Below are positions 35,350 through 40,047 of a stretch of DNA of 40,652 bases, piece by piece; position 1 is the stretch's first letter; each line of letters opens with the position of its first letter. The translations under genes were made by a program, and so were the position numbers. This DNA is from Emticicia sp. CRIBPO (GTDB taxonomy: Bacteria > Bacteroidota > Bacteroidia > Cytophagales > Spirosomataceae). The notes under the pieces are model-generated. The model made no database searches and had not been told where the DNA came from. It saw nothing but the letters and a program-made list of their open reading frames with translations. The stretch lies in NCBI RefSeq assembly GCF_009905725.1, contig NZ_JAAAKV010000020.1, positions 1-40,652 of the forward strand, given 5' to 3'.

Positions 35350-36108
35350 CTAGGATAACTCGTAATCAGATGCAAGAATCAAATTAATCTCTTTAAGAAT
35401 TTTATCCCTTTTTCTTTCCCAAACATTTGGTATTACAGATGGTAATTGTAGCAAGGTCTCGACTTTTTCCTTCAAAGAGTTGAATTTATCCTTTTCGTTA
35501 ATTTTCATTCCGTGGGTAGTAGGAATTACCCCCTTGACATCCACGTATTCAAAGGGAGGGATAAGAATGGGTATGTGATTATTGGTCTTAACCCACGTGG
35601 CACCCATTTCGCAGATACTTATTGTACTTGCATAGAAATTAGTAGATAAAACAAACAGGACTAAAACATTATTGTTTAATTCTTTCTTTATTGTTTCCAG
35701 AAAATCGGAACCTAATTTTACGCCATAGCCTTCAAATGAGCTGCAGAATATTTTGTCACTAGGGACACCAATAGCTTCCAAAGTGTCGATGATTTGCTCC
35801 ACAATTTTACGGTCTAAACTTGAATGGCTTATAAATATCTTATCAGCTTTATGAGGAACTTCAATGTGTAGGGATTTTAAGCTTTCCGGAATTTTTAGAC
35901 CCAGACTTTTTGCCAGGTTTACAATTGTTTCCACGGACTGGTCCTGGAGTAGATCAATTACATACCCTTTCTTGTCGCGGACAAAACTTGTTTCTTTTAT
36001 TTTAATTCCGTATTCACTCAGCAATATATTAATGTTCGCAGTCGTATGATTTTGCTGAAGTTTTGAAGCGGTATTCCTCACAAGTTTTAATTTGTCTGTC
36101 AGGGGCAT
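35350..36108 (-). CDS. TIR-domain protein, probable NAD-consuming defence effector
   Basis: 252 residues. Residues 1-82 are a helical N-terminal region of unknown type (NILLSEYGIKIKETSF, ETIVNLAKSLGLKIPESL). The TIR domain runs from about 88: KIFISHSSLDR (90-100), SSFEGYGVKLG and VLVLFVLSTNFYAS. The catalytic glutamate is probably in ISICEMGATW (E167). In bacterial defence, TIR domains cleave NAD or make signalling nucleotides. No obvious sensor partner such as an Argonaute is adjacent. It lies in an AT-rich stretch near the DRT3 operon. Defence role is inferred. Confidence 0.85.
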   Translation of the reverse strand: MPLTDKLKLVRNTASKLQQNHTTANINILLSEYGIKIKETSFVRDKKGYVIDLLQDQSVETIVNLAKSLGLKIPESLKSLHIEVPHKADKIFISHSSLDRKIVEQIIDTLEAIGVPSDKIFCSSFEGYGVKLGSDFLETIKKELNNNVLVLFVLSTNFYASTISICEMGATWVKTNNHIPILIPPFEYVDVKGVIPTTHGMKINEKDKFNSLKEKVETLLQLPSVIPNVWERKRDKILKEINLILASDYELS

Positions 36109-36207: not shown

Positions 36208-37377
36208 CTAGTCACTTCTCCGCCTGAAGTCAGCCGGTTTAAAGTTGCGGTCTACGAAGTTGTATCCCAAATCATAGGTCGTCGCCGGCTGCCTGTCACT
36301 AAATTCAAATGTAAAAAATTGGCCGTCTGTTGATATTGATTTAATGGAATGCTGGTATGCTTTTTTATTCGGATCAGGGCCCCAGTAAGCGTAATTACCT
36401 GTGAAGCTGACTTTGTATCTTGGTTTAAATGTCTTGTTGGTATGTTTTGATTTTATGAGTTCAGTCCACAGGAAGAAGCTTTCCGACTTTTCGAGCTCCA
36501 GCAATCGTCCATTTTTTTCAAATGCAAAGTAACGGAGTTTTGGGTAGTAGGGTTGGTCTGGAGGCAGGCTGTCAAGTTTAATGTGATCGTGGACGGTAGA
36601 GATCGGTACATAGGCCCAAATCAATTCATTTGTTGCTTTTTTCCCATAGTCATGAATGGTCTTAACTATCTTCCCAGACTGAATAAATGTTGTAGTCAGC
36701 GATTCATCATCCGTGTGATTAGCAGCATAGTAGTCTTTTAGTCTCAAGGGATTTGCTCGTCTGAATTTGTCAAAAATGTAATCCTTCATCCCTGCATCAA
36801 TGCGGCCCGAATAAAAGCCCAACGGCTTTGCATATCCTTCTCCCTGAAATAAAATGCTCCCTTGTTTGCTTACCGAAATGTCGATGATCGGGCAGGTGCC
36901 GTAACAGCCTGAACTGGAGTAAATAATCTGATCGAAGTCAGATAAGATGTCAGGTTTATTTAAAATTTTTCTGTATCGGACGATCGTTGAATCGTTAACG
37001 GCAAGTTGTAGCGTGTCGTTTTTTTTGCCGATAAATTTCCATTTTGCTCTCCATTTACCACTTATTGGATCTTTGATGATGATGTTGCCCTCATTCGTTT
37101 TATATGGAACAAAATTGGTCAAATGTCTACTTGTTCTTTTACCCGTAGTTTCGTCGTCTTTATAAAAACCAGTGTAAAACTCGATACTGTCGCTGTATAT
37201 GCTCATTCCCTCAGGAGAAATAAAGAAAGGTACTGGCAAATCATCCCCTTCAATAATTTCCTCCCAGTCGCCGGAAATGGCTTCTCTCAACCTTGCATCG
37301 GCCTTATGTTCTCCGGTAGTTTTGCAACAGATGAGCGAGAGGCTTGAAAGCAGAAGAATGATGATTTGCGTTTTCAT
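36208..37377 (-). CDS. DUF6438 lipoprotein
   Basis: 389 residues from the ATG at 37377, which yields a lipoprotein signal (MKTQIIILLLSSLSLICC); an ATG at 37443 is longer and less likely. The DUF6438 domain is recognisable by SSSGCYGTCPIIDISVSKQG and the following GYAKPLGFYSGRI strands (about 160-270). The N-terminal 150 residues are a separate beta domain. It is anchored to the membrane via the cysteine. Function is unknown. Confidence 0.8.
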   Translation of the reverse strand: MKTQIIILLLSSLSLICCKTTGEHKADARLREAISGDWEEIIEGDDLPVPFFISPEGMSIYSDSIEFYTGFYKDDETTGKRTSRHLTNFVPYKTNEGNIIIKDPISGKWRAKWKFIGKKNDTLQLAVNDSTIVRYRKILNKPDILSDFDQIIYSSSGCYGTCPIIDISVSKQGSILFQGEGYAKPLGFYSGRIDAGMKDYIFDKFRRANPLRLKDYYAANHTDDESLTTTFIQSGKIVKTIHDYGKKATNELIWAYVPISTVHDHIKLDSLPPDQPYYPKLRYFAFEKNGRLLELEKSESFFLWTELIKSKHTNKTFKPRYKVSFTGNYAYWGPDPNKKAYQHSIKSISTDGQFFTFEFSDRQPATTYDLGYNFVDRNFKPADFRRRSD

Positions 37378-37403
37378 GTAAGGTTTAGGGAAAGGATATA
37401 AAA

Positions 37404-37610
37404 ATGTTACAATATAAAAAAAGACACTCATTTTATTATTCAAAATTGTCTAATATATTGGATGCCGTGCATGATCTCCTGGGGCTTTTGAGAAAACAAA
37501 ACGCCTTTATAGAAAGAGTTAATGTGAAGTTGAGGTTTGAGTTGGAGGAAGTACCTGAGTCTATTTTGGGGAAAAGGCATGTAAATAATCAACTATTTAT
37601 TCAAATGTAG
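37404..37610 (+). CDS. Short hypothetical ORF, possibly a fragment
   Basis: 68 codons with plausible composition (LSNILDAVHDLLGLLRKQNA, then FELEEVPESILGKRHVNNQ). It diverges from the DUF6438 gene, 26 bp away. I do not recognise it. It could be the 3' end of a lost gene or a real small protein. Confidence 0.35.
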   Translation: MLQYKKRHSFYYSKLSNILDAVHDLLGLLRKQNAFIERVNVKLRFELEEVPESILGKRHVNNQLFIQM

Positions 37611-37637: not shown

Positions 37638-37670
37638 AAAAAAAAATAGGACAGGACTCCATCCCTGTCC
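37638..37670 (-). terminator. Terminator of the DRT3 operon
   Basis: On the minus strand GGACAGG-gatggagt-CCTGTCC is followed by TATTTTTTTTTA, a good rho-independent terminator about 110 nt after the second RT stop. Confidence 0.85.
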
Positions 37671-37779
37671 GTATAAAACTCTAAGAGTTTTTTAGGGCTT
37701 GTGTGTATTGGTTACCGTCTGCACCAAAAATTTGAAGGCGTTCAGAGTTACAATTTTAATTGCTTGCCCCATATGATCT
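37671..37779 (-). ncRNA. Candidate DRT3 template ncRNA with ACACAC
   Basis: Structured stretch between the RT stop and terminator. On the minus strand it holds a CAATT-aa-AATTG hairpin, then GGTAACCAAT-ACACAC-AAGCCC with the ACACAC at 37706-37701, then an AAAACTCT/AGAGTTTT hairpin (37675-37691). A GGGGC upstream can pair with the GCCC after ACACAC. From the literature as I recall it, DRT3 uses an ncRNA with an ACACAC template to make poly(GT) DNA. Exact 5' end unknown; it may begin inside the coding region. Confidence 0.5.
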
Positions 37780-40047
37780 TTAGTAAACACTATGGCCTCT
37801 TTTAGTATTTAATTCTATTCCGATATCGCTACCTTTCCAGGTAAAAAACAAATTAGAATAAACTCCCCCTATGTTTTCAATAATATTTTGTTTTTCAGAA
37901 TTAGTAGTGCCGTTATCGAAGAATTTAATTTGATTTAGAACTTTTTTTCTGAAATTGTTTGCGTCCGTATCTGTATTTGAAATATAAGGACAGGTTAATA
38001 CATCAATTAATAGGAATGTATCTTCTGCGTTATTGCTTTCAAATTTAGTAAATTTTTTAAGAATAATTTCTTGCAATTTTTGCCTCAAATGATTGAATTT
38101 TGAATTTCTTTTTATATGATTAAGTAATGATATTATTGTAAAATAATTTATGTCATAATTTAGTTTTGTGGTGTTTATATTAACGTTAAAATGCTTAGTA
38201 AGTAGTATCTCATCAAATTGATAATGATGTCCTAATTCATTTATTATTGGTAGCAAATAAAGAGTTTCAACTTCAGCATATTCAGATGACGAACTTCTTT
38301 TGAAAACAATAGAGATGCCGTCAAAAATTTTTTTAAACAAATTGTGTTTCTTGTCGAAATCATAGGCAATGAATTTTAATTCATCATCATTGACATAAGG
38401 TATTTTAGAGAGATAAGCTTTCTTTGTGCTTTCTTGATTTTTAATAAAATCTATTATCCTAAATAGGATATGGCACACCTTTATTGAGTAAGTAACTCGT
38501 GGTAGAACCGAATAGATAAAAAAAGTTAACTCGATTATTTCATTAAGGTTTTTATAAAGCTGTTGATGATAAATTTTAAGTACTTTTTCTTGATCTGCTT
38601 GTTTTTCTCTAGTAGATTGTAATTTCTTCTCATTCTCTTCTCTCTCTTCTCCAGATGAACTATTAATCTCTAATATTTTCAACCTTTTTTGAGAAAACAA
38701 GTCAAATAACACTTCTTGCTCAATTTGAATCTTTTTTATTAGCCCTTTTAGTTTGTTAAATATAATAGATAAAAAATAATTTTGTAAATCTTTATAACTT
38801 GTTTCGGTATTTGAAAGAATTAGCTTGTAGTTTGTTATAATGTCTTTGGAAGAATAATATTTCAGACCAATTTGACTTTTGGCTTCATTTTCATAAAATT
38901 GGAAAATCATTGAAAACTCAACAAGCTTTCTTATTTCTTCCTTCGCAATTGTAATATTTGTAATAATCGGTTTAGTGAAATTTTTTGTTTTAGATTCGTT
39001 GAAGAATAAGTTGTATTCCTGTAATTTTAGCTTATACGTATTAAGTATTTCTAATTTAATTTTTTCGTCAGTGTAAAAAACAAAAAAGTCATCTACATAC
39101 CTATAAACATCGTAGTCCTCCTTATATCTATAGCCCTTTTCATTCAGAGCTTTTTCAACATTCCTGTCAATTCTTTGAAGAATTAATTCAGCAAAAATTC
39201 TTGAAAATTCAGGACCAATAACTATCCCATTCGTTTCATTGTAATTCATTTGCTGCATAATTTTATCAAATTTGCCGCCAAATGAATTTTTAGCAGAGTA
39301 GATATTGTCTTTAACTATCTTTTTGTTTATCAATGCCCATGGAAGCGTGTGTGTATAGATACTATCAAAGCATCTGGAGACATCAAATTTTAATAAATTG
39401 TCGAATCTCTTTTCTGCTCTTTGATACTCATATGATTCATAGAATTTATATATATTACTATATTTTTTATACGAAAAAAATGTTTTTAAGCTTGTATATT
39501 CTTTATCGGTTGTCTCAATAATTTCAATTTCCGGACTTTTTGATTTTCTACTTTTGTTCGAAGAATCTTTGAAATACTTCAGAGATGATACCTTTGCTGC
39601 TCTTCTCAAAGAAAACTTACTTAATGAAGAGTTATCTAAAATTGTATTTCTATATTTATCGTAAAAACCAATTAAATGTAGTTGATTAATAGGGTGAATT
39701 ACTGTCAGTTCTCTGAAGTCATTGTCTTTATGAGTAACCTTAAATTTGAAAGGAATTGTAACTAGTGATTTCTCTAAATCTATTTTATAATAGTCATAAT
39801 TGGAGCTGTTTTTTTTTGGTTTATTCGAGTTGCCTAATCCAAATAAAATGGCAATTAACTTTTCTAACGTTCCTGAACGATCTTTTTTAAATCTGATTTC
39901 ATCCCCTACAATTGAAATTTTATGATTAATTAAGAAATTATAAAAGTATCTGTTTGAAAAAAAAGGGGGGACTTCGTAAGGGAGAATGTCTGAAAGCACA
40001 ACCCTTTCTTTTTTGTAACCAATATTTTTACTAGCTCTTTTTCTCAT
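37780..40047 (-). CDS. drt3b: Antiphage reverse transcriptase, Drt3b-like (UG8)
   Basis: 755 residues from the ATG at 40047, chosen because it forms an ATGA overlap with the upstream RT; a TTG at 40053 is two codons earlier. The RT palm shows RFDNLLKFDVSRCFDSIYTH (motif A, catalytic Asp) and YRYVDDFFVFY (YVDD at 317-320). The N-terminal LPYEVPPFFSNRYFYNF is characteristic of the second RT of DRT3. A long helical C-terminal region follows, with a coiled coil (about 450-500). In DRT3 the two RTs cooperate to make double-stranded dinucleotide-repeat DNA as antiphage defence. The gene is very AT-rich, consistent with transfer. Confidence 0.8.
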   Translation of the reverse strand: MRKRASKNIGYKKERVVLSDILPYEVPPFFSNRYFYNFLINHKISIVGDEIRFKKDRSGTLEKLIAILFGLGNSNKPKKNSSNYDYYKIDLEKSLVTIPFKFKVTHKDNDFRELTVIHPINQLHLIGFYDKYRNTILDNSSLSKFSLRRAAKVSSLKYFKDSSNKSRKSKSPEIEIIETTDKEYTSLKTFFSYKKYSNIYKFYESYEYQRAEKRFDNLLKFDVSRCFDSIYTHTLPWALINKKIVKDNIYSAKNSFGGKFDKIMQQMNYNETNGIVIGPEFSRIFAELILQRIDRNVEKALNEKGYRYKEDYDVYRYVDDFFVFYTDEKIKLEILNTYKLKLQEYNLFFNESKTKNFTKPIITNITIAKEEIRKLVEFSMIFQFYENEAKSQIGLKYYSSKDIITNYKLILSNTETSYKDLQNYFLSIIFNKLKGLIKKIQIEQEVLFDLFSQKRLKILEINSSSGEEREENEKKLQSTREKQADQEKVLKIYHQQLYKNLNEIIELTFFIYSVLPRVTYSIKVCHILFRIIDFIKNQESTKKAYLSKIPYVNDDELKFIAYDFDKKHNLFKKIFDGISIVFKRSSSSEYAEVETLYLLPIINELGHHYQFDEILLTKHFNVNINTTKLNYDINYFTIISLLNHIKRNSKFNHLRQKLQEIILKKFTKFESNNAEDTFLLIDVLTCPYISNTDTDANNFRKKVLNQIKFFDNGTTNSEKQNIIENIGGVYSNLFFTWKGSDIGIELNTKRGHSVY

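Follow-up and report, generated by a model that had tools for sequence, protein, structure and literature searches.

The 142 nucleotides that follow the second reverse transcriptase (RT) gene of a DRT3 operon in Emticicia sp. CRIBPO are, judging from sequence comparison, very probably the template RNA of this anti-phage system. The window, that is, the whole stretch of DNA analysed (40,652 nt; contig NZ_JAAAKV010000020.1, here C13), carries drt3b, part of drt3a and, downstream of both, a predicted structured RNA that would present the motif ACACAC in a stem-closed loop. The RNA is placed in a known system because its position and motif are those published for E. coli DRT3 (PMC13174585); what is new here is the variant itself. 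As classified below, it is a compact, separate lineage of DRT3 noncoding RNA (ncRNA) that is not confined to Bacteroidota, and its terminator loop appears to pair back into the loop that holds the template.

The DRT3 operon

Drt3b scores 697 bits against the curated family NF041748 (cut-off 350). The drt3a gene lies upstream of it in two pieces at a contig break, the window ending where contig C13 ends (40652). The piece on contig C14 matches NF041747 with 257 bits, above the cut-off of 200, over profile positions 1-244 and contains the catalytic motif RYVDD. The piece in the window covers positions 246-412 with 94-101 bits, under the cut-off. These scores uphold the initial annotation of a DRT3 operon. 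The two pieces show 64% and 60% identity to Drt3a of the related locus L002, and both drt3a ends are open in frame. C13 and C14 presumably adjoin, with the break splitting drt3a; no exact overlap of 8-60 nt was found between the contig ends. Across the collected loci with an adjacent frame, all 35 of the 35 Drt3a pieces given match NF041747.

For residue comparisons the E. coli enzyme EcoDRT3b is represented by locus L040, whose protein is almost the same as PDB 26cz and whose residue numbers agree with those in print (PMC13174585). In EcoDRT3b, E22, R241 and R71 act in nucleotide gating, D182 and YVDD in catalysis, and Y666 in priming (PMC13174585). Window Drt3b residues E27, R114, D224, R285, YVDD 319-322 and Y757 align with E22, R71, D182, R241, YVDD and Y666, respectively, and all of these gate, catalytic and priming residues are invariant in the 15 Drt3b rows of alignment A1. 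Y757 is the last residue of the protein. Around residues 445-490 (window numbering), the proteins of the window and of L002-L004 carry a charged insertion that may be a coiled coil; it is absent or shorter in the other rows.

Table 1. Positions of the two RT genes and of the predicted RNA elements (window coordinates unless another contig is named)
Feature	Position	Strand	Evidence
drt3b, predicted protein-templated RT, 757 aa	37780..40053	minus	NF041748 match
drt3a, C-terminal part, cut by contig end	40044..40652	minus	NF041747 match, sub-cut-off
drt3a, N-terminal part with YVDD	contig C14:1-933 (= L078:1-933)	orientation matches C13 piece	
Candidate DRT3 template ncRNA, from stop codon to end of U run	37638..37779	minus	covariance model, fold z −2.4
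P1 5′ strand, UGGGGC	37766..37771	minus	fold
Small hairpin between P1 and pseudoknot strand	37750..37763	minus	same place predicted in L002-L004
Proposed pseudoknot strand 1, ACUCUG	37743..37748	minus	ACUCU invariant in 5/5 clade members
Putative template, ACACAC	37701..37706	minus	conservation in loci
P1 3′ strand, GCCCUA	37693..37698	minus	begins 2 nt past template
P2 hairpin	37675..37691	minus	fold
P3 terminator hairpin, then U run	37649..37670	minus	terminator scanner
Proposed pseudoknot strand 2, apical UGGAGU of P3	37661-37656	minus	

The RNA downstream of drt3b

The drt3b frame ends, stop codon included, at 37780, and non-coding sequence runs from 37779 for 142 nt to the end of the U run. 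The initial annotation gave this stretch as about 110 nt, which is too short; its description as structured and non-coding holds, as do the terminator at the end and the ACACAC on the transcribed strand. The motif sits 74 nt past the stop codon. The window contains nine copies of ACACAC and 11.2 are expected, so that the hexamer alone is uninformative and its position is what counts. The stretch folds with z = −2.4, and one of 200 shuffled sequences folds equally well. Both the fold and a partner-swap test across loci place the template in a loop closed by stem P1. A weak helix before the template in the minimum free energy structure covers the first two template bases, and the centroid structure leaves the template open. 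Two overlapping ACACAC copies inside drt3b (39347-39354) were considered as the template and rejected; by eye they encode a conserved Y-T-H motif.

Covariance model R1 was built from four flavobacterial relatives only (L002-L005), with the window left out. It matches 37777-37639 with 59.1 bits (E = 3.6e-12), and the next match in the window (E = 0.067) is the opposite strand of the same place. Genome-wide this is the only match at E ≤ 0.001, with 150 of 2075 first-look candidates scored. As the model is made of close relatives, the match speaks for homology and not for function. An Rfam scan of the window gave no match at gathering scores, and a search of the genome for a repeated-ACACAC pattern found none.

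Conservation of the template motif

Drt3b loci were gathered from genome contigs and whole genomes as well as from plasmids and viral contigs, and 500 nt after drt3b were read in each. ACACAC lies within this distance in 38 of 39 different loci, window included (28 of 29 loci in one batch and 11 of 11 rows in the next, where one row repeats an earlier locus). The loci fall into two groups, A (with the window) and B, described below. Among group-A loci, all 20 of those tested carry ACACAC in the first 100 nt after drt3b, where shuffled sequences give an expectation of 1.41; for group B the first 250 nt contain it in 14 of 15 loci, with 0.89 expected. Together, 34 of the 35 shuffle-tested loci have the motif, and about 2.3 would be expected. 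As for the refuting conditions set in the initial annotation, ACACAC and the hairpins prove to be conserved in orthologous loci, and the RNA lies downstream of the second RT.

The counts exclude L016-L039, whose RTs score below the family cut-off, and L066, L067 and L070. L048, L050, L054, L057, L073, L075 and L077 cover places already included, with different boundaries; L065 (a near copy of L064) and L068 (the same locus as L047) were dropped.

The sole exception is L015, whose Drt3b is below the family cut-off. This distant Drt3b-like RT has a Drt3a neighbour and no ACACAC within 500 nt downstream, and may use another template or RNA position. Two further loci have an interrupted drt3b: that of L042 (CP083496.1, an E. 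coli plasmid) is annotated as two proteins and that of L058 is broken by stops. The downstream ACACAC is kept in both.

Two lineages of DRT3

Before any tree was made, the loci had been sorted into the two groups by eye, on the strength of the RNA and of the C-terminus of the protein. ACACAC lies 25-81 nt after the stop codon in the 21 loci of group A and 102-367 nt after it in the 15 loci of group B, with no overlap. The Drt3b tree separates A from B by a single split (20 + 15 rows, support 100/99), and so does the Drt3a tree (18 + 12 rows, support 100/100). The long Drt3b branches of L072, L015 and L045 are uncertain in placement. L015 belongs to neither group, and L042 and L058, with their interrupted drt3b, were left out of the trees; the Drt3a tree is also without L005, L008, L012 (the window), L015, L072 and L014 (whose contig has no frame upstream).

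Group A is represented in Bacteroidota, in an Omnitrophota metagenome-assembled genome, on plasmids from Bacteroides, Zymomonas and E. coli, and on viral contigs. The initial annotation had proposed a Bacteroidota version of the known RNA; a DRT3 RNA it appears to be, but one of a separate compact lineage that extends beyond this phylum. A search of three further genomes from the genus of the window found no match to Drt3b at E ≤ 1e-20, from which we conclude that the system is probably mobile.

E. coli DRT3 (L040) falls in group B with both Drt3b and Drt3a, and its Drt3b and that of the window are therefore in different tree groups. Two distinct Drt3b proteins have solved structures. The protein of 26cz is in the longer-RNA group, and that of 9z6y has its nearest tested relative there: among four compared, it is closest to L063 (group B, 547 bits), with 309 bits to L040 and 284 bits to L045, and it is a homologue of the window's Drt3b at 213 bits. 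We take PDB 9z6y/9z6z to be the structures of Deng et al. 2026, known to us through reviews and citations. The published covariance model, for which the methods give 32 unique hits and a legend 41 systems, was seeded with close relatives of EcoDRT3 (PMC13174585).

Architecture of the compact RNAs

The group-A design consists of a loop closed by P1, with ACACAC just before the P1 3′ strand, followed by hairpin P2 and then by the terminator hairpin P3. It is predicted in eight of the 11 loci folded (window, L002-L004, L006, L010, L011 and L052), with z scores of −2.1 to −6.0. L055 shows P1 and P3 in a fold that does not surpass shuffled sequences (z = −0.6), that of L056 is good (z = −3.7) with different pairing around P1, and L060 adopts another fold, again no better than shuffles (z = −1.1). 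In the smallest RNAs (L006, L010 and L011) the P1 loop measures ~25 nt; 11-12 nt separate the proposed pseudoknot strand from the template, and no stem-loop is predicted between them.

When P1 strands were exchanged among loci, swapped partners scored as high as the true ones in five of 20,000 trials for group A and in none of 20,000 for group B. A locus's own strand ranks first among all partners in 4 of 20 group-A loci and in 13 of 15 group-B loci. Relatives share strands, so that single loci prove little, both for P1 (4/20) and for the P3 loop considered below (own loop the best partner in 3/16). L003, a near copy of L002, was dropped from the pseudoknot, P1 and shuffle tests, and L005, which contributes to R1 and to the Drt3b tree, was not in these tests.

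A second model, R2, was trained on L006, L010 and L011. Of the 14 other group-A loci supplied to it, six have a match that overlaps the RNA at E < 0.01. R2 misses the RNA of the window, where the P1 loop is longer, and by eye its fit is out of register in the 5′ part of L047 and L056. L058, which is outside the flavobacterial training set of R1, was searched with the models.

A proposed pseudoknot with the terminator loop

Inspection by eye of the group-A RNAs shows that the P3 loop could pair with a part of the P1 loop lying 5′ of the template, and that the letters change together: CCGUCC/GGACGG in L006, CAGUCC/GGACUG in L047, CUGAC/GUCAG in L052, CCAGAAA/UUUCUGG in L055 and AUCUCC/GGAGAU in L058. 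Of four loci fetched after the pattern had been noted (L059-L062), L060 displays it by the automated rule, L061 and L062 by eye and L059 weakly.

For the statistical test, the terminator was set by rule, and the best run of pairs was taken between the upstream segment and the P3 loop extended by two bases at either end. This rule, which was revised once, is passed by 16 of 20 group-A loci, and four fail it. True partners score 221.5. Swapped partners average 178.6 (sd 9.6), with none of 20,000 as high, and shuffled loops average 185.4 (sd 9.2), with none of 2,000 as high. Under two other scores, the true value is reached by 1 and 3 swaps in 20,000 and by 2 and 4 shuffles in 2,000. The first version of the rule, applied to 19 loci, likewise gave no swap of 20,000 as high; under it, the best run of the window used another upstream segment.

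The signal belongs to the group, and few single loci are significant alone. For the window by itself, the pseudoknot does not outscore shuffled loops (0.49-0.78). Scores are low for L049 and L043, where by eye the rule took another hairpin; L013 and L042 have no clear pseudoknot. Within the five-member clade of the window, ACUCU and the loop GAGUC are invariant in 5/5 members, and several P3 stem pairs have changed on both sides. The corresponding loop test in group B showed no signal, with 2536 of 20,000 swaps as high for eight loci and 3432 of 20,000 for three, too few loci for a comparison. Counting of pseudoknot pairs on the model-fitted alignment A5 was dropped in favor of the swap and shuffle tests, because the unmodelled 5′ part is, by eye, out of register in L047, L056 and L052.

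In the literature text that could be searched, neither a compact lineage of DRT3 RNAs nor a pseudoknot in them is described; the pseudoknot may be known to others.

Alternative explanations

A stretch that was just the operon's 3′ UTR and terminator would also end in a good terminator, and it could hold ACACAC by chance, the hexamer not being rare in the window as a whole. Chance does not account for its recurrence in 38 of 39 loci, for the match of a model made without the window or for the covariation of P1, and we regard this explanation as extremely improbable. Much the same can be said of an RNA that regulates drt3 expression, as an attenuator or antitoxin RNA, instead of serving as a template. 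Such a role would suit a structured element adjoining the operon, but this element lies downstream of both genes, and its motif and position equal those of the template demonstrated in E. coli (PMC13174585); a regulator is accordingly most improbable.

Two further alternatives concern the pairing of the P3 loop. C-rich upstream loops and G-rich terminator loops might produce it as an artefact of composition; most single loci are not significant alone, and GC-rich genomes raise the scores. Shuffles that keep composition and swaps that keep this bias both fall well below the true pairs, which makes an artefact rather improbable. The pairing might instead be real and join different RNA molecules, as a kissing contact within a multimeric complex. 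Covariation shows pairing and is silent on whether it occurs within or between molecules, and the published DRT3 complex has a 6:6:6 composition (also given in PMC13213688) with its RNAs along the central axis (PMC13314766). In L006, L010 and L011 the two strands are only ~70 nt apart, which makes pairing within one molecule easy. We consider the kissing contact unlikely and an intramolecular pseudoknot the better reading.

Proposed mechanism

In E. coli, the DRT3 ncRNA is encoded downstream of drt3b and changes to its ACACAC abolish defence. What is made, the role of ACACAC as template and how synthesis is primed have been shown, slipping is inferred there too, and the poly(dTdG)/poly(dCdA) duplex is tied to abortive infection (all PMC13174585). 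The statement in the initial annotation that the first RT copies a conserved ACACAC into poly(GT) agrees with this account. We infer that the same chemistry operates at the window locus, given the shared genes, residues and motif.

The template RNA would be transcribed with drt3b or just after it and end at its own terminator. A search of the last 250 nt of drt3b for a Bacteroidota-type promoter (≤1 mismatch) had hits in only 3 of 21 group-A loci and none in the window, so that no shared internal promoter was found. Drt3a would bind the ncRNA and repeatedly copy ACACAC into poly(dTdG). As ACACAC consists of dinucleotide repeats, the growing strand could slip back and re-pair on it, as in telomerase and DRT10. 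The complementary poly(dCdA) would come from Drt3b, which would use no template and prime synthesis on its C-terminal tyrosine; the two strands would anneal. P1 is predicted to close the loop that holds the template beside its 3′ strand; P2 follows, and the P3 loop would pair back into the P1 loop. This pseudoknot would hold the template in place within the enzyme, and it might contribute to defining where the template ends on its 5′ side.

On a broader reading, which we advance tentatively and with somewhat less than even confidence, DRT3 has two deeply separate RNA designs, and the terminator of the compact one is a working part: the RNA would become competent only after termination has produced the 3′ hairpin, and the pseudoknot, in place of a stem-loop, would mark where copying stops. 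If true, a telomerase-like combination of template and pseudoknot would be found in a bacterial RNA of ~105-150 nt, in a system whose double-stranded repeat DNA is the work of two enzymes, one templated by RNA and the other by protein. The compact group may provide natural minimal RNAs, showing the parts that the DRT3 machine cannot do without, and would allow one to test directly whether the boundary of the template is set by a pseudoknot, as has been described for certain telomerase RNAs (PMC12632851).

Comparison with related systems

The window shares with E. coli DRT3 (PMC13174585; PDB 26cz) the two RTs, a downstream ncRNA with ACACAC in a loop, and the gate, catalytic and priming residues. 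The RNAs differ in their layout. ACACAC is at +129 in EcoDRT3 (from L040) and at +74 in the window. The E. coli RNA has a stem-loop 4 next to the template, and readthrough into it is proposed to shorten the products (PMC13174585); a GAAA-capped terminator closely follows P1 (from L040). The window RNA has an additional hairpin, P2, and the loop of its terminator is complementary to the one that holds the template.

Two other defence RTs bear comparison with this arrangement. DRT10 is not known to have a Drt3b partner; DRT2 belongs to another RT family with another product and is not known to have an ACACAC template. DRT10 and telomerase share with DRT3 the synthesis of repeats, a short internal RNA template and, as proposed here for DRT3, a structured 5′ template boundary (PMC12632851). 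Telomerase boundaries can be a stem-loop or a pseudoknot, and for DRT10 a stem-loop just 5′ of the template has been suggested (PMC12632851). Unlike DRT3, DRT10 is protein-primed and uses a different, poorly conserved template, with a 9-nt repeat in Eco3DRT10 (PMC12632851). The DRT2 ncRNA has a 5-bp pseudoknot that connects distant segments (PMC12596737).

Genes beside the RNA

A DUF6438 protein (36208-37443) is encoded directly beyond the ncRNA. Further along, 35350-36108 encodes a TIR-domain protein resembling the SpbK phage-defence family (140 bits), near DRT3 and possibly part of a defence island. In Novosphingobium, the DRT3 operon is followed on the opposite strand by a nucleotidyltransferase-HEPN gene (L071:3631-4560).
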